This document shows, piece by piece, positions 1 through 9,932 of a stretch of 10,100 nt of DNA (position 1 is its first letter; each line of letters starts with the position of its first letter). The stretch is from an uncultured Desulfobulbus sp. GTDB lineage: Bacteria > Desulfobacterota > Desulfobulbia > Desulfobulbales > Desulfobulbaceae. The notes beneath the pieces are model-generated. The model was not told where the DNA came from, ran no database searches, and saw nothing but the letters and a program-made list of their open reading frames with translations. The position numbers and the translations under genes are program-made. Location: contig CAMNHX010000021.1 in the NCBI GenBank assembly GCA_946539945.1, forward strand, positions 1 through 10,100, read 5' to 3'.

Positions 1-548
1 GTTACGGCTGGCTGGCTGGTTTCCTGTATCTGGCTGCCACGGCGCTTCGCCTGGCCCGCTTCAACGTGCAGGCTGCCAGCGAGGTGACCTCGGACGGCAA
101 CTTCACGGGCCTGCCCTGCCCGGCAGCAGCGGTCATGATTGCCGCTTCCGTGCTGTTCAGCACTGAAGTCCTCAACAACAGCGATCCGGTGCGCCACATC
201 TTCCTGCTGCTTCTGGTCTATCTGCTCTCCTATCTGATGATCTCCACGCACCGTTACCAGAGCTTCAAGCACCTGCGCATTCCCCGGAAACAGCGTTTTC
301 AGGCACTGGTTGGTCTGATTCTGATTCTGGCGCTTCTGGCTACCGAACCGCCCATAACCCTCTGCGTGGTCATGTTTCTGTACGTGCTTTCTGGGCCGGT
401 CATGGCAACGTACCGGCTTCTGGCCAGGCAGAATCGGCTTCCCTGGAAAAAATCCAGACAGATGCCTGTTTCCACACCTTCCGGCGAGTCTGGCCAGAGT
501 GGCCCGAATGGTCAGACTGGTCAGAGCAACCCGGAAGCCGGGACCTGA
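1..548 (+). CDS. pssA: CDP-diacylglycerol--serine O-phosphatidyltransferase, 3' part (5' end outside window)
   Basis: This is the C-terminal part of phosphatidylserine synthase, an inner-membrane CDP-alcohol phosphatidyltransferase that joins CDP-diacylglycerol and serine, the first step toward phosphatidylethanolamine. The first full codon in frame is at position 3, and the frame is open to the window edge, so the start lies upstream. The readable part begins YGWLAGFLYLAATALRLARFN and continues with FTGLPCPAAA, which match the ARFN and GLPxPxAA segments of bacterial PssA. Several hydrophobic membrane stretches follow (about 125-235 and 310-405 in bases). The CDP-alcohol catalytic motif itself is not in the window. 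The protein ends in a hydrophilic tail containing four Gly-X-Y triplets (GQS GPN GQT GQS, 492-527), which I do not associate with this enzyme. Only 5 bases separate its stop from rsmD, which suggests cotranscription. Confidence 0.85.
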   Translation, partial: YGWLAGFLYLAATALRLARFNVQAASEVTSDGNFTGLPCPAAAVMIAASVLFSTEVLNNSDPVRHIFLLLLVYLLSYLMISTHRYQSFKHLRIPRKQRFQALVGLILILALLATEPPITLCVVMFLYVLSGPVMATYRLLARQNRLPWKKSRQMPVSTPSGESGQSGPNGQTGQSNPEAGT

Positions 549-553
549 AGCCA

Positions 554-1156
554 GTGCGCATCAGCGGGGGCATAGCCCGGGGTTGCCGCCTGCTCGGGCC
601 AAAAGACGAACAGCGCTTTCTCCGTCCCACCTGCGACAGGGTACGGGAAGCGCTGTTCAACATTCTGGGCAGGCGCGTTCAGAACGCGGTAACGCTTGAC
701 CTCTTTGCCGGCACTGGCGCCTGGGGGCTTGAAGCCTTGAGCCGGGGAGCCAGGGCTGTACTCTTTGTGGATGAATCCCCGGAAGCGGGACGGCTGGTGG
801 CAGCCAACCTGCGCCACTGCCTGCCTGAAGTTGAAGCAGCCGGACAGGCGGGTTTTCTTCGCCTGCGTCTGGGACCTGGCAGCAGGCTGAATGTTCTGGC
901 AGCAAAAGTGCCAGCCCCACACCTGTTTGATCTGGTCTTCATGGACCCGCCCTACCAGAAAAATCTGGCGGCGCAGGTTCTGAAAAGGGTGGAAGAGGCG
1001 CAGATTCTTTCTCCCCAGGCCCTGGTCGTGGCAGAAGAGCATCAGGCAGTTGTTCTGCCAGAGCGCGTGGGCAGGCTGCACGCGGTTGATCGTCGGCAAT
1101 ACGGGGAAAGCAGCCTGTGGCTTTTTGCCCTCAACAGCCAGTCAAATGGAGCATGA
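554..1156 (+). CDS. rsmD: 16S rRNA (guanine(966)-N(2))-methyltransferase RsmD
   Basis: This SAM-dependent enzyme methylates G966 of 16S rRNA during small-subunit assembly. The 200-residue product has the family's normal length and landmarks. The N-terminus MRISGGIARG resembles the usual RI(I/S)GG..RG opening. RPTCDRVREALFNIL (24-38) is the conserved RPTxDRVREALFNIL block. LDLFAGTGAWG (48-58) is the SAM-binding motif I, and DPPY (131-134) is the N-methyltransferase catalytic motif. The start is GTG, chosen because it places the conserved N-terminus exactly at the beginning. The gene follows pssA by 5 bases and precedes coaD by 3 bases. The rsmD-coaD pairing is common in bacteria and supports both calls. 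Confidence 0.93.
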   Translation: MRISGGIARGCRLLGPKDEQRFLRPTCDRVREALFNILGRRVQNAVTLDLFAGTGAWGLEALSRGARAVLFVDESPEAGRLVAANLRHCLPEVEAAGQAGFLRLRLGPGSRLNVLAAKVPAPHLFDLVFMDPPYQKNLAAQVLKRVEEAQILSPQALVVAEEHQAVVLPERVGRLHAVDRRQYGESSLWLFALNSQSNGA

Positions 1157-1159
1157 AGC

Positions 1160-1681
1160 ATGGACGCCTCCAATCTGCCCTGTCCTAGAGAGTCGGGCAC
1201 GGCCCGCAGCGCCCTCTATCCGGGAACCTTTGATCCCATTACCAACGGCCATCTGGACATCATCAGCCGGGGTCTTTGTGTCTTTGAAAAGATCACGGTT
1301 GTTGTGGCCAAGAACGTGAAGAAGCAGCCACTCTTTGATCTGGAAGAGCGCTGCCAGCTTATCCGTGACTGCTTTGTCGGGCTTGAAGACCGGGTGACTG
1401 TGGACGCTACCAGCGGACTGGTGGTGGACTATGCGCTCGAACACGGCATTGACGCCATTATCCGGGGCCTGCGCGCAATTTCCGACTTTGACTACGAGTT
1501 CCAGCTTGCCCTGATGAACCGCAGGCTTGCGCCCTCGGTGGAAACCGTGTTCCTCATGACCGGCTTTCGCTGGATCTACATCAGTTCAACAGCCATCAAG
1601 AATGCGGCCCGCTTTGGTGGCCATATCTCCGGGTTGGTGCCGGAGCACGTGGAAGCAGCACTGAAACGCAAATTCGGGTGA
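1160..1681 (+). CDS. coaD: Pantetheine-phosphate adenylyltransferase (PPAT)
   Basis: This cytoplasmic nucleotidyltransferase transfers AMP from ATP to 4'-phosphopantetheine to give dephospho-CoA, the penultimate step of coenzyme A synthesis. The 173-residue protein carries YPGTFDPITNGH (20-31), with the T/HxGH-type nucleotide-binding motif TNGH. It also has IIRGLR (100-105) and the C-terminal ISSTAIK segment (141-147), all standard in CoaD. The N-terminus is about 16 residues longer than in typical CoaD, which starts just before the AxYPGTFDP strand. I see no better internal ATG, GTG or TTG close to that strand, so the ATG at 1160 is kept, but the first 17 residues are uncertain. The gene is packed between rsmD and the VanZ-like gene. 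Confidence 0.95.
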   Translation: MDASNLPCPRESGTARSALYPGTFDPITNGHLDIISRGLCVFEKITVVVAKNVKKQPLFDLEERCQLIRDCFVGLEDRVTVDATSGLVVDYALEHGIDAIIRGLRAISDFDYEFQLALMNRRLAPSVETVFLMTGFRWIYISSTAIKNAARFGGHISGLVPEHVEAALKRKFG

Positions 1682-1685
1682 TCCT

Positions 1686-2645
1686 GTGCCTCTGATCCGC
1701 CGCCTTGTTCCGGCGTTGCTCCTTCTGTGCCTGCCCCTGTTCTTTGTGGGCGGGCCGGGCTTTTATTCTCCCCGATCCTCGGTCGCCTTCTGGGATCTGG
1801 GCCATGTGGGCTACTTTGGCCTTTTGACCCTGTGGCTTGCTGCCTGGTCGCCTGTGCAGCGCCCCGGTCTTTCCGGTCTGGCGCGGCTGGCGCTGTTGAC
1901 GCTGCTTCCCTTTTTGGCAGGTCTTGCCGTTGAAGTCCTACAGTTTTTCGTGCGCGGTCGTTCCGCTGGTTTGGGCGATCTGGGGCGAGACCTCGTGGGT
2001 ATAGTTCTGGCCCTGGCCTTTTTCCCCTGGCCGCAGGCAGAGCGCTGGAAACAGGTGTTGCGAGCTTTGCGGGTTCTGGCACTGGCGCTCCTGCTGCTTG
2101 CTGTCTGGCCCTTTTTGCGGGCCATGCTGGATGAAGACCGGGCCAGACGGGACTTTCCTGTTTTGGCTGATTTTGAGACCAAGGACGAGTTGTCCCGCTG
2201 GTATCACGCCAACCAGTTCAGGCTGGACGATCAGATTGTGCGGCACGGCAGGCATTCGGCCCGCATCCAGCTTTCCACAGCCAGAATTTCCGGTGTTACC
2301 CTGCTGCACTTCCCCTCGGACTGGCGCGGTTTCCAGTGGCTGTTGTTCAGCGTGTACAATCCCCTGACCAGACCTTTGGAACTCCACTGCCGCCTGAACG
2401 ACGCGCAGCACCGCCGCACCCGCAGTCCTTACAGTGATCGCTTCAACACGAGGTTCATGCTGCAACCTGGCTGGAACGATCTGCGTATTTCCCTGGATGA
2501 GGCTGCAGCAGCGCCCAAAGGCCGCCGGATGAACATGGCGCAGATTGCCGGTTTTGCCCTCTTTGTGGTGCAGCAGGAGGAGGCGATGGCGCTGCGGCTG
2601 GACAATGTGCGGTTGGAGGAGAGTGGAGAGAGGAGTGAGGAGTGA
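1686..2645 (+). CDS. VanZ-like membrane protein with C-terminal sandwich-like domain
   Basis: This 319-residue membrane protein has two parts. Residues 1-145 hold about five hydrophobic segments (near 5-22, 34-53, 66-82, 100-114 and 127-145). They include GHVGYFG (39-45), EVLQFFVRGRSAGLGDLGRD (83-102) and a following hydrophobic helix, the pattern of the VanZ-like family (an E...Q/R segment followed by a D..D/N in a helix). Residues about 157-315 lack membrane segments and read as a beta-rich domain: it opens LADFET, contains WRGFQWLLFSVYN and GWNDLRISL, and ends LRLDNVRLEE. That resembles galactose-binding or carbohydrate-binding jelly rolls (CIA30/CBM type), inferred by pattern only. The function is unknown. 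VanZ itself gives low-level teicoplanin resistance, and envelope roles are usual for the family. The start is GTG, 4 bases after coaD. The last codons sit in a purine-rich GAGGAGTGA-like stretch. Confidence 0.75.
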   Translation: MPLIRRLVPALLLLCLPLFFVGGPGFYSPRSSVAFWDLGHVGYFGLLTLWLAAWSPVQRPGLSGLARLALLTLLPFLAGLAVEVLQFFVRGRSAGLGDLGRDLVGIVLALAFFPWPQAERWKQVLRALRVLALALLLLAVWPFLRAMLDEDRARRDFPVLADFETKDELSRWYHANQFRLDDQIVRHGRHSARIQLSTARISGVTLLHFPSDWRGFQWLLFSVYNPLTRPLELHCRLNDAQHRRTRSPYSDRFNTRFMLQPGWNDLRISLDEAAAAPKGRRMNMAQIAGFALFVVQQEEAMALRLDNVRLEESGERSEE

Positions 2646-2740
2646 AGAGTTGGACAAGTGGTCTCGCTTTGCGCGGCAAAACAACTTCCCGCTTCTGGAG
2701 AGGTTGCGGTTCACTGCTTTGCAGGACAGCTTGAGCGCTC

Positions 2741-2962
2741 TAACGCAGTTCCGTTTTCACTTTTTATATCATGTTGAGCGAAGCGGGCAAGATCTTGTCA
2801 TGCTGAACAAAGCGAAGCGGTAAAAGTCCATCTCCTGAAGGATACCGAAACCTCGGCAAGAGCCGCTCCTGCCAGCATTCCGCTATTCTTCAGCGCTTCG
2901 CGCTTCAGAATGACTTTCCAGCGAAGCGGTGAAAGTCGTAAAAAGACAAAGCGGAAACGCTC
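2741..2962. repeat. Palindromic, MITE-like intergenic repeat, copy A
   Basis: The 349-base gap between the VanZ-like gene and the convergent DUF1992 gene contains no credible gene. It is filled by a repeat-like element. The left end contains TTCCGTTTTCACTTT (2749-2763), identical to copy B at 7718-7732. The right end contains TGACTTTCCAGCGAAGCGG (2911-2929), identical to 7758-7776, and CGGAAACGCTC (2952-2962), identical to 7799-7809. The two ends are imperfect inverted repeats of each other (TTCCG..TTT against AAAGCGGAA). Inside are two degenerate direct units of the form TCATG(C/T)TGA(A/G)C..AGCGAAGCGG (near 2769-2787 and 2799-2820) and a GCGCTTCGCGC hairpin region (2894-2904). No transposase is encoded, so any mobility would be non-autonomous. 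Confidence 0.65.
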
Positions 2963-2994
2963 AAAAACATTGAGGCTGCAAGCAGGAGAGGAGA

Positions 2995-3372
2995 TCACTT
3001 TCTGGACAGCCGTTCTGTTACCCGGACGAAGTAGGGACCGTCCTCGTCCAGATGCACGGGACGTCCCATGCTGGCTTCCAGTTTGGCGCACAAAAGGCTG
3101 ATGCGACGTAGGTGTCCAAGCTTTTCCCGTTCTTCTGTCGCATGGGCCAGCAGATCCTGGGTGCGGCGGATTTCCTGGTGCAAGGCCAGTTCTTCCGGGA
3201 TATAGCCAGCGTTTTTCAGAACCTTGTAGGCCATACGCAAATCAGGCGCGACCATGCGCATCTCGGTATCATCAGGCAGGGGCCGGTTTTTCCAGTGACT
3301 CAAATCAGGGAAGGCTCCGGTCTCCAGGGCTTCGCAGATCCGCCGCTCGGCAATGGTTTGAAAGATGCTCAT
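2995..3372 (-). CDS. DUF1992 (DnaJ homologue subfamily C member 28-like) protein
   Basis: This small 125-residue cytoplasmic protein belongs to the DUF1992 family, which also occurs as the conserved region of DNAJC28. Matching features are AERRICEALETGAFPDL (8-24), corresponding to the family's AExxIxEAxxxGxFdnL opening, then a short NRPLPDD segment (29-35), and PDLRMAYKVLKNAGYIPEE (43-61), the most conserved block. The remainder is a charged helical region. There is no J-domain HPD motif, so it is not itself a DnaJ co-chaperone. The biochemical role is not established. The ATG overlaps the stop of the upstream lipoprotein gene by 4 bases (ATGA), which implies translational coupling. An AGGA ribosome-binding site lies just upstream, inside that gene. 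Confidence 0.85.
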   Translation of the reverse strand: MSIFQTIAERRICEALETGAFPDLSHWKNRPLPDDTEMRMVAPDLRMAYKVLKNAGYIPEELALHQEIRRTQDLLAHATEEREKLGHLRRISLLCAKLEASMGRPVHLDEDGPYFVRVTERLSRK

Positions 3373-3845
3373 CTGTCCTGAATCTGCTTTTCCAGATAGC
3401 GCCAGAAATCCGACCGCTCCAGATCGGAAATGCTGCGGGCAAAGTGCAGCACTTTCCAGACCAGCAGGGAATCCACGCCGTCAATGACAGCGCCGGGTTC
3501 CAGCGTGGCAGAAGAGCTGCCGCCCAGATCGCCCAGGCTGCGCACCAACATGGACGCATGAGAGGCATCTGTCGGGTCAGAGTCAATGTAGCAGGCCAAA
3601 GGCGGCTTCAGACCTGCCCACTTGTCGTTGTCAATACGGATACGGACAGCAGCCTTGCCGTCCTTGAGACCAAGGCTGACAACCCTGCCGATAACAATGC
3701 CCGACTGATACACCTTGTCAGCCTTGGCAATACCCTTGCCGTCGGCAAAAAGGACGGTGATTTCCTTGCCCGGCTGGCAGGCGGCGATCAGCAGGCAGAG
3801 CAAAACGGGACAGACAAACTGAAAAAGGACTCTGGTGTGTTTCAT
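3369..3845 (-). CDS. MCE-domain (MlaD-like) lipoprotein
   Basis: This is a predicted exported lipoprotein of 158 residues. The N-terminus has two positive residues, a hydrophobic core and the lipobox IAAC (20-23), so the mature protein would start at Cys23. Gln at +2 does not suggest inner-membrane retention. Residues about 28-74 resemble one MCE domain: [19 protein letters not shown], then IGRV and a beta-rich stretch ending [11 protein letters not shown] proteins such as MlaD bind and move phospholipids across the periplasm. Here the domain is unusually small and the permease and ATPase partners are not next to it, so the role is inferred. I chose the ATG at 3845 over an in-frame one at 3935 because it gives a proper signal peptide. 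The ribosome-binding site is weak. The gene overlaps DUF1992 by 4 bases. Confidence 0.7.
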
Positions 3846-3977
3846 GGAGCTTGTTTCGATCGTATGTGAAGGGCAGATTACGATCTGTCTGTTTACTCCG
3901 TTTTTGCGCTCATTTCGACAGCAAAACCGCTGCAACCAGGGCCAGCAGGAGGTTTCAATTTTTTCTCGATTTTTCTG

Positions 3978-4006
3978 TTGACAGAGGAGGCTCCTTCCGG
4001 TATTTT
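3978..4006 (+). promoter_or_regulatory. Sigma-70-type promoter for tRNA-Gly
   Basis: A perfect -35 hexamer TTGACA (3978-3983) is followed after 17 bases by TATTTT (4001-4006). T-rich runs lie just upstream (3958-3976), as in strong stable-RNA promoters. Transcription would begin near 4013, about 22 bases before the tRNA. It is the only obvious promoter upstream of both the tRNA and rplM-rpsI. Confidence 0.7.
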
Positions 4007-4034
4007 TGCGCCTCGCAATGTTACCTCATGCAAA

Positions 4035-4109
<75 letters not shown>

Positions 4110-4121
4110 TCAAAAGGTTCC

Positions 4122-4150
4122 AGGCTCGAACCGTTGTTCGAGCCTTTTTT
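4122..4150 (+). terminator. Intrinsic terminator after tRNA-Gly, just before rplM
   Basis: The perfect 9-bp stem AGGCTCGAA (4122-4130) and TTCGAGCCT (4137-4145) encloses a 6-base loop and runs into six T residues (4145-4150). It ends only 18 bases before the rplM start, so any transcript from the tRNA promoter must read through it to express rplM-rpsI. Confidence 0.85.
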
Positions 4151-4168
4151 CTGTCAGGACAAGAGCAG

Positions 4169-4600
4169 ATGAAAACCTATCTTACTCCGGTCGACGAAAT
4201 TGTGCGGAAGTGGTATGTGGCAGACGCCGACGGTAAAGCCTTGGGGCGTATTGCTTCTGAAATTGCCATCCTCTTGCGTGGCAAGCACAAGCCGACCTTC
4301 TGCACCTTTCAGGATAACGGTGATTTTGTGATCGTGGTCAATGCCGAACGGGTGCATCTGACCGGCAACAAGCTGGACAAGAAAGTTTATTATCGCCATT
4401 CCGGCTATCCGGGTGGCATCAAGGAACAGACTGCCCGTGAACTGCTGGCAAAAAACCCTGAAGAACTGATCCGTAAGGCAGTTCGTGGTATGCTTCCCAA
4501 GAACAAGCTGGGACGTGCCCAGCTGAAAAAGCTAAAGGTGTACGTGGGGCAGGAGCATCCCCATCAGGCGCAGAAGCCGGAAACTTACGAGATTCGCTAA
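4169..4600 (+). CDS. rplM: 50S ribosomal protein L13
   Basis: L13 is an early-assembling protein of the large ribosomal subunit that binds 23S rRNA. The 143-residue length is normal. Family hallmarks are [17 protein letters not shown] (19-35 region), LLRGKHKP, the [10 protein letters not shown] strand, the [11 protein letters not shown] loop and the [15 protein letters not shown] helix. The open frame extends far upstream through the tRNA, but homology begins at MKTYL, so the ATG at 4169 is the start. The purine-rich GGACAAGAG at 4157-4165 serves as the ribosome-binding site. It is followed after 15 bases by rpsI, the usual L13-S9 operon. Confidence 0.97.
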
Positions 4601-4615
4601 CAAGGAGAGCGATCC

Positions 4616-5008
4616 ATGGCACAGGAAAAGACCTACGCAACCGGCAAAAGAAAGACTGCCATCGCTCGTGTCTGGTTGACTCCGGGGAGCGGTAAAGTGG
4701 CTGTCAACACACAGGACGTTGCCGCGTATTTTGGCAATATCTATTTTGAGCCTAAATTGGCAAAGCCTTTTGCCGTTACCAATACCACGGACAACTATGA
4801 CGTGGTTGCCACAGTGGCGGGAGGCGGTAAATCCGCGCAGGTTGACGCCTTGGTGCATGGCATTGCACGTGCCCTGCAGGAGCTGGACCCGGAGATGCGT
4901 CTTCCTCTGAAAAAGGCCGGACTCCTGACCCGTGATCCGCGTGCCAAGGAACGCAAGAAGTATGGCTTGCGTTCTGCCCGCGCCCGTTTCCAGTTCTCCA
5001 AGCGTTAA
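4616..5008 (+). CDS. rpsI: 30S ribosomal protein S9
   Basis: S9 belongs to the small-subunit head, and its C-terminal tail reaches the P-site tRNA. The 130-residue protein shows the standard N-terminal [13 protein letters not shown], the [10 protein letters not shown] segment, the [19 protein letters not shown] helix and the basic C-terminus ending in FSKR, the universally conserved terminal K-R. A clear AAGGAG ribosome-binding site lies at 4601-4606, ahead of the ATG. It is the second gene of the rplM-rpsI operon and is followed by a strong terminator. Confidence 0.97.
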
Positions 5009-5063
5009 ACTTCAGTCAAACGTCGGCGATTGCGGGACGGATTCCAGTTTGCAAAGAAGGTTC

Positions 5064-5098
5064 AAGGGATGGCGAGTCCGCTCGTTATCCCTTTTTTT
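5064..5098 (+). terminator. Intrinsic terminator of the rplM-rpsI operon
   Basis: A 13-bp stem with two G-T pairs is formed by AAGGGATGGCGAG (5064-5076) and CTCGTTATCCCTT (5081-5093) around the tetraloop TCCG. It runs directly into a T tract (5092-5098). This closes the ribosomal operon before argC. Confidence 0.88.
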
Positions 5099-5142
5099 AT
5101 CTGTATTTCACGGCGCTTTTCAAAGCACAAGGAGACTGCGTT

Positions 5143-6183
5143 ATGCTCAAGGTTGGCATTATCGGCGCTTCCGGTTACACCGGCGCGGAACTGGCCCGGA
5201 TTCTGGCAACGCATCCAAAAGTCAAGCTCACCGTTGCGACTTCCAGACAGTATGCCGGGCAGAAGCTGTCTGATGTTTTCCCCAGCCTGTACAAGCGGGT
5301 TGACCTGGTTTGCGAGAATCTGGCGGTGGAGGAACTGGCGTCCCGTGCAGATTTTTTCTTTACCGCTGTCCCCCACAAGACCGCGATGGGCATTGTGCCG
5401 CAACTGTTGGCAGCAGGCAAAAAAGTGGTGGACTTGAGCGCTGACTACCGCATCCGCGACCAAAAGGTGTACGAGAAATGGTATCAGTCCCACAGCAGCC
5501 CGGAATTGCTGAAAGAGGCTGTGTATGGTCTGCCGGAGCTGTACCGGGAAGAGATCAAGGGGGCCAGGCTGGTGGCCAATCCTGGCTGCTATCCTACTTC
5601 TGTCATTCTGGCACTGAACCCGATTTTGCGGGCTGGTCTGATTGAGGCAGGCACGATTGTCATTGATTCCAAGTCCGGAGCGTCCGGGGCAGGTCGCAGC
5701 GCCAGTGTGGCAAACCTGTACTGCGAGCTTGCCGACAGTTTCCGGGCCTACAAGGTGGGCGGCAAGCATCGCCACATACCGGAGATTGAGCAGGAGTTGA
5801 GCCTTGCCGCAGGCGGGCCAGTGCGCGTCACCTTTACCCCGCACCTTTTGCCCATCTCGCGGGGCATTTTGAGTACCATCTACGCCACACTCACACCAGA
5901 AGGCGCAAAGGCTGACCTCTTTGCCCTGTACAACAAAACGTACAAGAAAGAACCCTTTGTGCGGATTCTGGAACCGGGCAAGCAGCCTGCCACCCAGAAC
6001 GTGCGCGGGTCCAACTGTTGCGACATCGGCTTTGAGCGCGACCGGCGCACGGGCCGTCTGGTTCTGACCTCGGTTATTGACAATATCGGCAAGGGCGCTT
6101 CTGGCCAGGCTGTGCAGAACATGAACCTCATGCAGGGCTTTGCCGAAAAAGCCGGACTGGCAGGGACTGCCTTCTTTCCCTGA
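5143..6183 (+). CDS. argC: N-acetyl-gamma-glutamyl-phosphate reductase
   Basis: This enzyme carries out the third step of arginine synthesis, NADPH-dependent reduction of N-acetylglutamyl-phosphate to the semialdehyde. The 346-residue length is normal. [15 protein letters not shown] (5-19) is the NADP-binding loop. [12 protein letters not shown] (71-82) follows, and NPGCYPT (146-152) holds the catalytic Cys149. The conserved SGASGAGR and [10 protein letters not shown] stretches come next, with GSNCCDIGF and [16 protein letters not shown] toward the C-terminus. AAGGAG at 5129-5134 positions the ATG. The stop shares one base with the truA start (TGATG), so the two are translationally coupled although functionally unrelated. 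I see no ARG-box-like operator that I can defend in the 44-base leader. Confidence 0.96.
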
Positions 6184-6959
6184 TGACCCGCATCATCCGG
6201 TTGCTCCTGTCCTACGACGGCACGGCTTACGCGGGCTGGCAACGGCAGAGGCAGGGAGAACGCACTATTCAGGCCACGCTGGAAGACTGCCTGCGCACAC
6301 TGTGCGGGCATCCAGTCACAGTGCATGGGGCAGGCCGTACAGATGCCGGGGTTCATGCGTTGGGTATGGTTGCCCATTTTCATACCCCGGTCGACCATCC
6401 TTTGACAGCCTTTTCCAAGGGACTGAACTCGCTTTTACCGCCGGACATCCGCATTTTTGAGGCCAGGGAGGCTGCTCCGGACTTTCACAGCCGCTTCAGC
6501 GCCTGCGCCAAAATGTACCGTTACGATTTTTGCACCGGCGAGGTCCTGCCGCCGGAGAGACGGCTGTATATGGGCCACTTTCCGGGAAAGAGCCTCTTTG
6601 ATCTGAAGGCCGTTTCCAAAGCCCTGCATCATCTGTGCGCCACCCACGATTTCACAGGTTTTGCCCACGCCTTGGAACTGCATGAAGGCGGACGCGGCGC
6701 GGTGCGCACACTTCTGGCTGCACATTGCGAGCCGATTCCCGGCTTGCCCGGCGGTTGGTCTCTGCGGCTCAAGGGCGACGGTTTTTTGCGGCAAATGGTA
6801 CGCATCATCACCGGTACAGTGGTGGAAGTGGGGCAGGGCAGGCGGAACGCGGACAGCGTGCTTGAGATTCTCGCGGCCCGTGACCGTCGTCTGGCAGGCA
6901 AGACCGCGCCTGCCTGCGGTCTTTTTCTGGAAAGGGTCCTGTATCCCGAAGGAGTGTGA
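6183..6959 (+). CDS. truA: tRNA pseudouridine(38-40) synthase TruA
   Basis: TruA isomerises uridines 38, 39 and 40 in the anticodon arm of many tRNAs. The 258-residue protein has the family's N-terminal LLLSYDGTAYAGWQRQ (7-22) and the active-site motif GAGRTDAGVHA (49-59), with the nucleophile Asp54. It also has the C-terminal DGFLRQMVRIITGTVVEVGQG segment, in which the RxMVR..(V/I)G.. pattern is characteristic. The start overlaps the argC stop by one base, and maf begins one base after the truA stop. Confidence 0.96.
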   Translation: MTRIIRLLLSYDGTAYAGWQRQRQGERTIQATLEDCLRTLCGHPVTVHGAGRTDAGVHALGMVAHFHTPVDHPLTAFSKGLNSLLPPDIRIFEAREAAPDFHSRFSACAKMYRYDFCTGEVLPPERRLYMGHFPGKSLFDLKAVSKALHHLCATHDFTGFAHALELHEGGRGAVRTLLAAHCEPIPGLPGGWSLRLKGDGFLRQMVRIITGTVVEVGQGRRNADSVLEILAARDRRLAGKTAPACGLFLERVLYPEGV

Positions 6960-6960
6960 A

Positions 6961-7578
6961 ATGTTTGTTGCCGCCTGTCCCCTGGTTCTGGCCTCTGCCT
7001 CACCCCGCCGTCACGATCTCTTGCAGTCGCTGGGACTGTCTTTTTCCTGCGTGCCAACAGAGATTGACGAAACGCCACGCGCCAACGAAGAGCCAGCAGC
7101 CTTTGCCATGCGCATGGCCAGAAGCAAGGCGGAAACTGCTGGCAAGACGCAGCCCGCTTCAGCTTGCGTGGTAGCGGCAGACACGGTGGTGGCGGTGAAC
7201 AACCGCATTCTGGGCAAACCGAAGGATCACAGCGAAGCGCTGTCCTTTCTCTCGCAACTGAACGGCCAGATGCACACCGTCATTACCGGTTACTGTGTAC
7301 AGGCCCCTTTCCGTAACCTGGATTATACCGACCATGTTTGCACCCGGGTGCAGTTCGGCCAGTTTGAAGAAAACGTGCTGGCTGCCTATGCCGCAGGCAG
7401 CGAGCCGATGGACAAGGCAGGAGCTTACGCCATGCAGGGCACGGGGTGTTTTCTGGTGTCCGCAGTGAGTGGGTCCAGCACCAACGTCATTGGTTTGCCA
7501 GTGGAAGAAGTGGTGCAGCTTCTCCTGGAGTACCAGCTCATTGCCCCGGTCGCTGATATGGCCTCGCTGGCAGCCTGA
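6961..7578 (+). CDS. maf: Maf-family nucleoside triphosphate pyrophosphatase
   Basis: Maf proteins hydrolyse non-canonical or pyrimidine nucleoside triphosphates to monophosphates and are linked to septum inhibition and house-cleaning. The 205-residue product carries LVLASASPRRHDLL (8-21), the signature ASxSPRRxxLL. It also has VVAADTVV (70-77) with the catalytic Asp, ILGKP (83-87), the DKAGAYAMQG segment and a C-terminal NVIGLPVEEV. This is closer to the dTTP/UTP pyrophosphatase (YhdE) type than to the m7GTP type, but I cannot settle the substrate by eye. The frame is open far upstream inside truA; the ATG at 6961 is chosen from homology and from the AAGGAG at 6948-6953. Confidence 0.92.
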   Translation: MFVAACPLVLASASPRRHDLLQSLGLSFSCVPTEIDETPRANEEPAAFAMRMARSKAETAGKTQPASACVVAADTVVAVNNRILGKPKDHSEALSFLSQLNGQMHTVITGYCVQAPFRNLDYTDHVCTRVQFGQFEENVLAAYAAGSEPMDKAGAYAMQGTGCFLVSAVSGSSTNVIGLPVEEVVQLLLEYQLIAPVADMASLAA

Positions 7579-7585
7579 AGCGCTA

Positions 7586-7700
7586 TTAGAGCGCTTTCGC
7601 TTTGATTTGTTATCGCGAAGCGGAGTATTCAACCTTCCTCCCGGAAAAGCCGGGTCTCCGGCACGCCATTTTCAAAAAACAAAGTAAAAATGCTCTCTTA
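7586..7700. repeat. Degenerate palindromic repeat, copy C
   Basis: Just after maf, TTAGAGCGCTTTCGCTTTGATTTG (split at about 7586-7609) resembles the left end of copy B. CAAAGTAAAAATGCTCTCTTA (near 7680-7700) resembles its inverted right end with several mismatches. Between them lie CGCGAAGCGG (7613-7622), the internal motif of the family, and a short CCCGG/CCGGG hairpin. A hairpin AAGCGCT-ATTAG-AGCGCTT (7578-7596) at the left end could also terminate maf transcription, although the T tract is poor. This is an older or diverged copy and the call is tentative. Confidence 0.4.
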
Positions 7701-7709
7701 CTCCGGCAA

Positions 7710-7811
7710 TAGAGCGTTTCCGTTTTCACTTTGTATGCCATGCTGAACGGAGCGAAGTGACTTTCCAGCGAAGCGGGAAAGGATGTAGAAAGACAAAACG
7801 GAAACGCTCTA
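7710..7811. repeat. Palindromic, MITE-like repeat, copy B (best preserved)
   Basis: The element has perfect 17-bp terminal inverted repeats, TAGAGCGTTTCCGTTTT at 7710-7726 and its complement at 7795-7811. Its total length is 102 bases. The interior carries CATGCTGAACGGAGCGAAG and TGACTTTCCAGCGAAGCGG (7758-7776), both shared with copy A about 5 kb upstream. No coding capacity is present. It lies between the core gene maf and the accessory segment. Confidence 0.75.
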
Positions 7812-7882
7812 ATAAAATCAAGGGGTTAGCGCCCGTATTTTGGAACAAAAACGAATTTTTCAACGGGCTGCCAAGCGACACG

Positions 7883-8125
7883 TCATTTCATAAGACGGGC
7901 CACCAGTTCGACTCCCTCTTTGGGATCAATCTCCAGTTTTTTGCAAAAGTACACGAATTCAATCACATCCAGCCGCCGTTCTCCTTGCTCCACTTTGGCA
8001 ACCAAGGAGTTGGGCGCATCCAACAGAGCGGCAAACGCTCGTTGCGTCAGTTTTTTCTCTTGCCGCTTGCCCACCAGCCAAGCCCGAAAGGTCTCGTATT
8101 CTGCGGAGTACAGCGTTTTTTGCAT
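7883..8125 (-). CDS. XRE-family helix-turn-helix regulator (small)
   Basis: This 80-residue protein is essentially a single HTH domain. Residues 13-20 (FRAWLVGK) start helix 1. KKLTQRAFAALLDAPNSLVAKVEQGER (24-50) is the classic Cro/C1-type pattern: LTQ at the turn into helix 2, a Ser-Leu-Val-Ala-Lys-Val-Glu recognition helix and the closing EQGER. DVIEFVYFCKKLEIDP (53-68) matches the last helices. I chose the ATG at 8125 over an upstream in-frame one (8257) because AAGGG sits 5 bases before it and the extra 44 residues do not look like protein. It is divergent from the peptide cassette, which starts 214 bases away, so it may control itself and the cassette. The target and signal are unknown. 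Confidence 0.8.
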   Translation of the reverse strand: MQKTLYSAEYETFRAWLVGKRQEKKLTQRAFAALLDAPNSLVAKVEQGERRLDVIEFVYFCKKLEIDPKEGVELVARLMK

Positions 8126-8339
8126 TTTACCCTTGCTCCCATTTTCGGAACAAGGTATAAGGGAAGCGCTCTGCTTCCAAAATCGGAGCAAAACGCCGCC
8201 CAATCTGCTTGGATCGTGTCTTTTGCCCAAAAGGTGGTTGCCGCAATCCGGCTCCATTATGTCGCGAACGCACGCTCACGGCAGATTTCGGGAAAATCAA
8301 TTTGTGCCATATCAACCCAGAAAATGAGGAGGTAGAATT
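8126..8339. other. Divergent intergenic region between the XRE gene and the peptide cassette
   Basis: The region holds the - strand promoter candidate and, at its right end, a very strong ribosome-binding site GAGGAGGT (8326-8333) for the precursor peptide. Frames crossing it on both strands are open but have no start or composition that I would call coding. I could not identify a convincing -35/-10 pair for the + strand cassette. Composition changes from GC-rich to AT-rich near 8290-8300. Confidence 0.5.
8154..8181 (-). promoter_or_regulatory. Candidate promoter and operator of the XRE gene
   Basis: On the - strand, TTTGGA (8181-8176) and TATACC (8159-8154) are spaced by 16 bases and precede the XRE start by about 30 bases. 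Nearly all of the spacer is an inverted repeat, GGAAGC-GCTCT-GCTTCC (8162-8178), a suitable size and position for binding of an HTH dimer. This is pattern-based and unproven. Confidence 0.35.
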
Positions 8340-8453
8340 ATGGCGTATGAGACACCGGAGATGGTAAAAGTTACTGTTGTTTTAGAGAAGGATGTCGCGA
8401 TTGGTCCTGAAAACTGCTCCGGCGGTTTTAATGGGTGTTGCTGGAAGGACTGA
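8340..8453 (+). CDS. RiPP precursor peptide candidate, 37 residues
   Basis: This short gene encodes a leader-core type peptide. It begins MAYETPEMVKV, where Y3-E-T-P6 is a YxxP motif like the one bound by PqqD-type recognition elements in lasso-peptide and related leaders. An acidic/hydrophobic stretch (LEKDVAIGPEN, 15-25) follows. The C-terminal end is CSGGFNGCCWKD (26-37), with Cys at 26, 33 and 34, three Gly and one Trp, plausible substrates for a radical SAM enzyme. The start is fixed by GAGGAGGT 6 bases upstream, the best ribosome-binding site in the accessory part, which fits high precursor output. A hairpin terminator follows, then the PqqD-like and radical SAM genes. I do not recognise the core as a named family. 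The modification, the cleavage site and the mature product are unknown. Confidence 0.75.
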   Translation: MAYETPEMVKVTVVLEKDVAIGPENCSGGFNGCCWKD

Positions 8454-8474
8454 CAGTTTATTCAAGATTCATAT

Positions 8475-8516
8475 AAAGAGCCGTGAAGTGAAATGTAACT
8501 TCATGGCTCTTTTATT
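8475..8516 (+). terminator. Hairpin terminator between precursor and modification genes
   Basis: AAAGAGCCGTGAAGT (8475-8489) and ACTTCATGGCTCTTT (8498-8512) pair over 15 positions, with one G-T wobble, around an 8-base loop, followed by the short T-rich tail TTTTATTA. It lies 21 bases after the precursor stop and 25 bases before the next gene. Partial termination here would give excess precursor over enzymes, a layout common in peptide cassettes. Confidence 0.75.
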
Positions 8517-8537
8517 ATAGTAGGTTAGGGTATTATA

Positions 8538-8810
8538 ATGCTCACACTCAACAATGATTTTGTATATAGAGAAATATTCGGCGTAAGATTATTGTTTCCG
8601 GTGAGAAGAAACAATATATCGAATGATGTGCTTTCTTTGAATGAAACAGCAGGAAGCATATTTGAAGAATGTTCTCAATCTAGAAACTCTCATGATTTGG
8701 CGATGCTCCTTTGTGAAAAGTTCATCGATGTTGACAAAGAAAAAGTATATGCAGAATTGAAAGCATATACTGAAAAATTGATTTCCATCGGATTGTTGAT
8801 AGAGAGGTAA
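8538..8810 (+). CDS. PqqD-like RiPP recognition element protein
   Basis: This 90-residue protein resembles stand-alone PqqD-like peptide chaperones, which bind the leader of a precursor and present it to the radical SAM enzyme. The N-terminal half is beta-rich (residues 7-34: DFVYREIFGVRLLFPV, then ISNDVLSLN). Next come LNETAGSIFEEC (34-45), matching the family's L(N)xxGxxIwxxl pattern, and two helices with a D..KV..(D/E)L..Y...L...GLL ending (65-88), as in PqqD and MftB. It would act in the cytoplasm as a partner of both neighbours. The ribosome-binding site is weak (TTAGGG, 8525-8530), in contrast to the precursor gene. It is strongly AT-rich relative to the core genes. The specific leader contact with the YxxP motif is inference. 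Confidence 0.8.
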   Translation: MLTLNNDFVYREIFGVRLLFPVRRNNISNDVLSLNETAGSIFEECSQSRNSHDLAMLLCEKFIDVDKEKVYAELKAYTEKLISIGLLIER

Positions 8811-8816
8811 TGACCA

Positions 8817-9932
8817 ATGGATTGCTTGATAGGAGAGGTAAAGTGGCCCCAATTTATTGAGAAGCATTTCAAGAATATTAGATCTCCATTTTCAGCAGGA
8901 ATGGAATTGTTGCCCGAATGTAATTTTAGATGTGTTCACTGTTATGCTGAATCCGACAGGTGCAATACAGAGAATCAAATGACTACAGAACAGATATGTA
9001 AAATCATTGACATTCTTGTTGAGCACGAATGTTTCCAATTATATTTTACAGGTGGAGAATGTTTGTTGCATAAGGACTTTTTTGATATATACAAGTATGC
9101 AAAAAAGAAAGGAATGCTTGTTTCCGTTCTGACTAACGGGTCACTGATTAATCAGAAGCATATTGAACTGTGGCGTGAATATCCACCAGAATTGGTTTCC
9201 ATATCAATGTATGGAGCAACATCTGGTACATATTATAGTATTACAAAAGATAAAAATGGATATAACAAGTTCATGAGTGCAATATCACTATTGGAAGAAA
9301 ACAATATTCATCACGAGTTGAAAATCGTGGGAATGAAACAAAATATCAACGATATTATAGTGATGAGAGAATTTATTCGAGGACGTGGTCAAATCAACTC
9401 AATACTGGCTTGGGATATTCGTCCAATGAACAGCGGCGATCAAGGTCCCATCGGTGATTGTCGCGTTACTCCAGAGCAGGCTATGGAAATCGAATTACAG
9501 GATCCTGAACGTCGGGAATTTATGAAACGCAAAGCTCTGGATGAACAGAGAGAGGAAAAAACCGAACGTCAAAAGGGGGGCTACTTATATCCTTGCGATG
9601 CAGGCAAACAGTTTGTTTTCATTACTTATGCAGGATATATGCAAGCGTGCGTGAAAGCGGTGGATCCAAGATATGATTTACTGCATGGAGACTTTGATGA
9701 AGGATGGGAATTTCTCCGCAGGGAATTTGTTGACAAGAAAGCATCTCAAAATTTCACGTGTCTGCAATGTAAAAAATTCAAGTACTGCGGGCAATGCACG
9801 GCAGCATTTAAGATTGAAATGGGTGATCCGGAAATTCCCGTTCCATTCTATTGCGAATTGGGCGAATTACGTAAGCAATACATGGATGATGTGGCAAAGG
9901 GGGCGGATTCTCCATCAGAAAGAGTAAGTTAG
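8817..9932 (+). CDS. Radical SAM/SPASM peptide-modifying enzyme
   Basis: The 371-residue enzyme has the radical SAM cluster motif C35-xxx-C39-xx-C42 (ECNFRCVHCYAE). It also has GGE (79-81) in FTGGECLLHKDF for SAM binding, and a TNGS strand (107-110), all in the expected barrel order. The C-terminal SPASM region has seven cysteines: C260, C278 (with the G273-x4-C278 pattern), C315, C318, C324, C327 and C346. These would bind two auxiliary [4Fe-4S] clusters. The canonical CX2CX5CX3C is CX2CX5CX2C here. The spacing and the small precursor next door fit enzymes that crosslink or rearrange RiPP cores (thioether, C-C or decarboxylative). A charged insert (about 221-254) separates the two halves. 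The ATG lies 6 bases after the PqqD-like stop, with GAGAGGT overlapping that gene's end. The exact reaction cannot be told from sequence. Confidence 0.92.
   Translation: MDCLIGEVKWPQFIEKHFKNIRSPFSAGMELLPECNFRCVHCYAESDRCNTENQMTTEQICKIIDILVEHECFQLYFTGGECLLHKDFFDIYKYAKKKGMLVSVLTNGSLINQKHIELWREYPPELVSISMYGATSGTYYSITKDKNGYNKFMSAISLLEENNIHHELKIVGMKQNINDIIVMREFIRGRGQINSILAWDIRPMNSGDQGPIGDCRVTPEQAMEIELQDPERREFMKRKALDEQREEKTERQKGGYLYPCDAGKQFVFITYAGYMQACVKAVDPRYDLLHGDFDEGWEFLRREFVDKKASQNFTCLQCKKFKYCGQCTAAFKIEMGDPEIPVPFYCELGELRKQYMDDVAKGADSPSERVS

Follow-up and report, generated by a model that had tools for sequence, protein, structure and literature searches.

The ruminococcin C enzymes RumMC1 and RumMC2 carry the cysteine pattern CX13GX4C-X36-CX2CX5CX2C-X18C (PMC8172795), and the producer of this peptide is a human-gut Ruminococcus (PMC8172795, PMC8188230). 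Discrete recognition elements (RREs) for ribosomally synthesised and post-translationally modified peptides (RiPPs) that adjoin radical S-adenosylmethionine (SAM) enzymes are already on record (PMC7470986), and W/Y/LxxP is a common RRE recognition motif, PqqD groups included (PMC12710340, PMC13381572). Here we analysed contig CAMNHX010000021.1 from an uncultured Desulfobulbus sp. (assembly GCA_946539945.1; 2.09 Mb, 406 contigs, 75% complete). The whole contig, 10,100 b, is referred to as the window. A first-pass annotation had placed a 37-residue precursor, a stand-alone PqqD-like protein and a SPASM radical SAM enzyme near its right end, and all three open reading frames (ORFs) were recovered on the plus strand, at positions 8340..8453, 8538..8810 and 8817..9932. 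The three genes very probably form a peptide-modifying RiPP cassette.

The precursor gene (8340..8453), recognised as an ORF and by its homologues P0088 and P0089, is preceded by a Shine-Dalgarno site, GAGGAGGT (8326..8333, plus strand, by direct reading), 6 nt before the ATG. Because a product of 37 aa is short, the key evidence for it is recurrence beside a homologous enzyme. Genome G915 encodes an enzyme 47% identical to that of the window, the sole close homologue with a readable context, and beside it, at locus L056, a 36-aa peptide (P0089) that ends CSTDWSGCCYNG and is 33% identical to the window precursor (P0001). A search of 5.8 billion proteins also revealed P0088, a public near-copy of the window precursor (86% identical). 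The three cores, CSGGFNGCCWKD (window), CSSGFNGCCWKD and CSTDWSGCCYNG, amount to two core types in three sequences, and the pattern C-S-x-x-[F/W]-x-G-C-C-[W/Y]-x-x is conserved in all of them: C26, S27, G32, C33 and C34 are invariant and positions 30 and 35 are aromatic, with residue 37 being Asp in P0001 and P0088 and Gly in P0089. The results showed that a short peptide is conserved beside the homologous enzyme. The C-x6-CCW ending singled out by the first-pass annotation recurs in L056 as C-x6-CC plus an aromatic residue, but this last residue is W or Y, not always W.

A profile of the three precursors, searched against proteins, returned only P0001, P0088 and P0089 (three of four candidates). 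A DNA pattern for the C-terminus hit the window and L056 one time each and none of the 200 shuffled versions of each; as it was derived from these two sequences themselves, this guards against chance but does not test the pattern independently. The viral collection, which served as a control, contained 22 stretches that matched the pattern: 14 stop within the core, 7 more have no in-frame start codon, and one, L094, has such a codon. An enzyme relative was found in none of the 22. The precursor itself gave only chance-level matches (E 2 to 6) in the viral, plasmid and phage collections, and none in Pfam, PADLOC or NCBIfam (E<=0.1). Judged by its relatives in sequence, the window peptide is not a chance ORF.

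In five sets of genome searches, close relatives of the enzyme came only from G915 (0/394, 1/391, 1/38, 1/51 and 1/359, the same genome each time), so the precursor could be compared at one other locus only. The G915 locus (L056/L057; GC 36.7%) encodes, on one strand, the 36-aa peptide, a second radical SAM gene, PqqD and the enzyme. The second, short radical SAM gene (L057 9994-10938, minus strand) lies between the precursor and pqqD, is missing from the window, and reached no cut-off among the 25 NCBIfam families listed for it (of 44). Two bases past the SPASM enzyme gene begins a gene for isopentenyl-diphosphate isomerase (L057 8029-8589, minus strand; above two NCBIfam cut-offs), an arrangement like that of one operon. 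The region L057 12406-16461, no more than about 5.3 kb from the precursor of G915, contains an integrase of phage type, a large serine recombinase (both by Pfam) and a further recombinase-like ORF noted by eye. Among the matches listed, the enzyme and PqqD of the window and its relatives gave only generic domains or scores under the cut-offs.

The window leader contains YETP, and the precursor leaders read [Y/F]-E-x-P. P6 and E16 are invariant in 5/5 leaders, counting the three precursors and the peptides of L020 and L021, two loci of the host's class. The latter peptides (L020 755-904, plus strand; L021 2832-2987, minus strand) are precursor-like: their leader reads P-Y-x-P-P-K, two cysteines are present, and a PqqD-radical SAM pair lies alongside. 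The 90-aa PqqD-like protein (8538..8810), a discrete RRE, exceeded the gathering score of Pfam PF05402 (E 4.4e-10) and shares 36% identity with the PqqD of L056; its structure predicted from the single sequence (pLDDT 43.5) was too poor for use. The suggestion that this protein binds the YxxP leader fits, by analogy, the published recognition of W/Y/LxxP by RREs, and is in keeping with the aligned leader proline and glutamate.

The third gene (8817..9932) encodes a predicted SPASM-type radical SAM peptide maturase of 371 aa, assigned from PF04055 (E 6.2e-22), its structure model, fold and tree position; the Pfam SPASM domain is absent from its Pfam matches. Its radical SAM motif CX3CX2C is C35/C39/C42, and its C-terminal cysteines follow CX12GX4C-X36-CX2CX5CX2C-X18C. 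At E<=0.001 we found 85 homologues including the enzyme itself, the aligned ones 75% down to 27% identical; source names were attached to 4 of the other 84, none more specific than radical SAM/SPASM. CX3CX2C lies within the first 160 residues in 82/85, and CX2CX5CX2C occurs in 77/85 (CX3C in 6, neither in 2). The full SPASM pattern is present in 60/85; the spacing counts cover these 60 and give X36 in 51 and X18 in 57. The spacing CX16 obtained for L056 reflects a pattern match that starts at an earlier cysteine. AhbD has CX2CX5CX2CX17C (PMC10452713). In our comparison, X17 occurred in 5/5 AhbD-like rows, CX3C with X17 in 2/2 MftC sequences, and X18 in 17 of the 20 host-class loci L005-L024. 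The spacing sets the enzyme apart from MftC but only weakly from AhbD.

Of 69 NCBIfam families matched by the enzyme, 25 were listed, and none of these reached its cut-off; the best score among them was that of AhbD. PADLOC gave three viperin-type matches, to the radical SAM domain. The structure model of the enzyme was good (pLDDT 92.3), and in fold comparison anaerobic sulfatase-maturing enzymes (anSMEs) tied with peptide enzymes; SuiB and ChlB also tied. In the tree, the enzyme grouped with PqqD-linked radical SAM enzymes, away from the AhbD-like, NirJ and MftC rows. The label for PqqD-linked rows includes L024, where PqqD was not found, and L018 and L022, which share one PqqD. The tree held no anSME, PqqE or RumMC rows, carried a long-branch warning, and its joins beyond a 22-row clade fell under the starred level. 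The expectation that the enzyme would group away from non-peptide SPASM families thus held in the tree for the AhbD-like, NirJ and MftC rows, but anSMEs were compared by profile scores and fold alone, where they tie with peptide enzymes.

Several described systems share parts of this arrangement. Ruminococcin C resembles it in its SPASM radical SAM enzyme, near-equal cysteine spacing, cysteine-containing precursor and RRE guidance (PMC8172795, PMC8188230), but the RumMC RRE is fused at the N-terminus (residues 16-94), the conserved cysteines of RumC number four, and its core is longer. RumMC was likened by its published description, not by sequence, and no RumMC model was among the NCBIfam matches listed for the enzyme. 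Mycofactocin has a small precursor, a discrete PqqD-like protein and a SPASM radical SAM enzyme, in the gene order that the first-pass annotation had compared with ours and that we found again in L122. Its core ends differently, as that annotation had also pointed out, and MftC has CX3C and X17 where the window enzyme has CX2C and X18. The conserved MftA C-terminus (TIGR03969) was defined in PMC3023750. Lasso peptides share a [Y/W]xxP leader and a discrete RRE (PMC13381572, PMC12710340), whereas neither a cyclase nor a leader peptidase was recognised, by reading, among the ORFs of the contig, which ends 168 b after the radical SAM gene. The ranthipeptide system PapA/PapB uses a thioether-forming radical SAM enzyme, and C33-x3-D37 would fit its CX3D motif in two of the three precursors (PMC9413430); the RRE here is a separate protein, and D37 is replaced by Gly in P0089.

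Named families were rejected on their model scores: the MftC equivalog TIGR03962 (73.9 of 265 bits), with the MftA C-terminus model unmatched; the PQQ route equivalogs TIGR03859 for PqqD (15.6 of 46 bits) and TIGR02109 for PqqE (51.4 of 381.35 bits); the PapB family NF047865 (57.9 of 340 bits); the sactipeptide maturases StsB (80.3 of 625 bits), AlbA (70.6 of 850 bits) and SkfB (50.9 of 300 bits); and the heme synthase AhbD (TIGR04545, 91 of 500 bits; outside the AhbD-like clade). In the literature searched, which lay outside the subscription surveys of radical SAM RiPPs, the core matched that of no named class. The architecture of discrete RRE plus radical SAM enzyme is not new; the precursor core, as a sequence, is unmatched among the named families searched. 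The label 'unrecognised class' given earlier can be kept in so far as no named family matched, but its scope is that of the libraries and papers searched, and it stems from two core types. A new RiPP class is a tentative proposal that we regard as possible but unlikely. It would comprise a precursor of 36-37 aa, with [Y/F]xxP in the leader and CSxx[F/W]xGCC[W/Y]xx as the core, guided by PqqD to an unnamed SPASM family that forms an undescribed linkage, for example on the adjacent cysteine pair or from Cys to the neighbouring aromatic residue. In some lineages further steps would be due to another radical SAM enzyme and, perhaps, to an isopentenyl-diphosphate isomerase encoded in the same direction, and mobile elements would spread the cassette between anaerobes.

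The most likely reading, at about even chances, is a SPASM RiPP cassette with a discrete RRE that makes cysteine thioethers; thioethers are favoured because of the three invariant cysteines and the RumMC-like spacing. The 37-aa precursor would be made in excess, as a 15-bp hairpin at 8475..8512 (plus strand), a probable terminator or attenuator, would let only part of the transcripts reach the enzyme genes. This hairpin has a folding energy of -23.6 kcal/mol (z -8.36, 0/200 shuffles) and was not listed by a simple terminator scan of the window; it may be a partial terminator favouring the precursor over the enzyme genes. In L056, too, the sequence past the precursor gene forms a strong fold (z -5.38), without a U run. 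By analogy with known RREs, the PqqD-like protein may bind YxxP and the strand next to it in the leader, and present the 12-residue core CSGGFNGCCWKD to the enzyme. The enzyme would then cleave SAM, abstract hydrogen from one residue of the core and link that carbon to the sulphur of a core cysteine, giving a thioether ring of the sactipeptide or ranthipeptide type. If the system includes a leader protease and an exporter, these would lie past the contig end or elsewhere.

The conserved aromatic positions of the core and the tie of the enzyme fold with SuiB and ChlB would suit the same cassette forming a C-C (or C-O) crosslink from F30/W35, as in streptide or cyclophanes, with the cysteines forming a disulphide or binding a metal. 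We think this rather unlikely: the three invariant cysteines and the RumMC-like spacing favour thioethers, and a W-x-D ring is not conserved, given the Gly at residue 37 of the third precursor. The gene order of mftA-mftB-mftC, together with an MftC model match over enzyme residues 19-338, could instead point to a mycofactocin- or PQQ-like route, in which the core C-terminus is oxidised or decarboxylated and excised as a small redox cofactor. Such a route is improbable, as the MftC score falls far below its cut-off, the precursor lacks an NCBIfam match, the SPASM spacing is not that of MftC, the enzyme stands apart from MftC in the tree, and the contig shows no recognisable gene for cofactor tailoring. 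AhbD's best score among the families listed and its similar spacing would agree with a non-peptide substrate (AhbD/NirJ-like tetrapyrrole chemistry) beside an incidental peptide. This seems highly improbable: same-genus and host-class genomes carry AhbD-like heme genes of their own (L098-L102, 410-437 bits, under the 500-bit cut-off) that form a separate 100/100 clade outside the enzyme's group (5/5 rows), and PqqD and a conserved peptide adjoin the enzyme in two distant genomes.

The GC content was 47% for the precursor, 34% for pqqD and 39% for the enzyme gene, versus 57.5% in the host part of the contig. Because of this drop within the contig, a low-GC donor is the probable source of the cassette, which fits horizontal transfer. 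The same drop, the contig stop at 10,100 and the absence of a close copy from other genomes of the class (1/257 at E<=1e-60, the window's own) would also be expected if a sulphate-reducer-like chromosome end had been mis-assembled with a foreign cassette, real but of another host. We give this a low probability, since a repeat of the same genome ends about 0.5 kb before the cassette, 3 database contigs are listed for the peptide and 3 for the enzyme (maybe one assembly deposited repeatedly), and the integrase and recombinase near the G915 relative make transfer plausible. The repeat measures about 100-130 b, has the inverted ends GAGCGTTTCCGTTTT...AAAACGGAAACGCTC, is found at window positions 7700-7830 and 2749-2965, has 50 matches listed across the genome, and looks like a miniature inverted-repeat transposable element.

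More distant enzymes were found in the host's class, where 16/144 other relatives carry enzymes 27-34% identical at E<=1e-30. PqqD was found in 19/20 of these radical SAM loci. Loci L005-L023 resemble the cassette in having PqqD beside a radical SAM enzyme, in CX2C (19/20 of L005-L024) and, for L020 and L021, in a YxxP-leader peptide; they differ in their cores. Twelve of the 20 (L005-L012, L014-L017) have, before pqqD, a large conserved gene ending ..YNxxGDxx.., with no small peptide recognised, and are a different system with related enzymes. Many of the host-class loci have another conserved ORF downstream. The viral collection held no close enzyme relative (30 loci, best 6e-21 at 25% identity), the plasmid collection none at 1e-30 (97 records at 1e-5, best 2e-23 at 26%) and the phage collection none at 1e-20. 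Among genome contigs, the one match was weak (L004, 32% over 47 residues), and the genome concerned yielded nothing at 1e-5.

Upstream of the cassette, a divergent gene (7883..8257, minus strand) encodes a 124-aa helix-turn-helix protein, a possible regulator or part of the flank, whose membership is unsure; its HTH_3 match (E 5.3e-4, 20.4 bits) lies under the gathering score of 23, and a search of 22 other genomes of the same genus gave nothing for it at E<=1e-5. Window positions 1-7578 hold ordinary chromosomal genes, judged by eye. The gene content, taken with the AhbD-like heme genes of same-genus genomes, suggests that the host may be a sulphate reducer akin to the Desulfovibrionaceae. 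A tRNA-Gly(gcc) gene lies at 4035-4109, followed by ORFs that we take to resemble ribosomal proteins L13 and S9. The 168 b from the enzyme gene to the contig end contain no convincing gene.

With its three genes and discrete RRE, the locus is compact enough to be reconstituted in full, and its enzyme belongs to a family without a specific name. If the product is a sactipeptide, the system would exemplify chemistry like that of RumMC but with an RRE encoded on its own. A new linkage in the adjacent cysteine-aromatic core, if there is one, would broaden the chemistry of SPASM enzymes.
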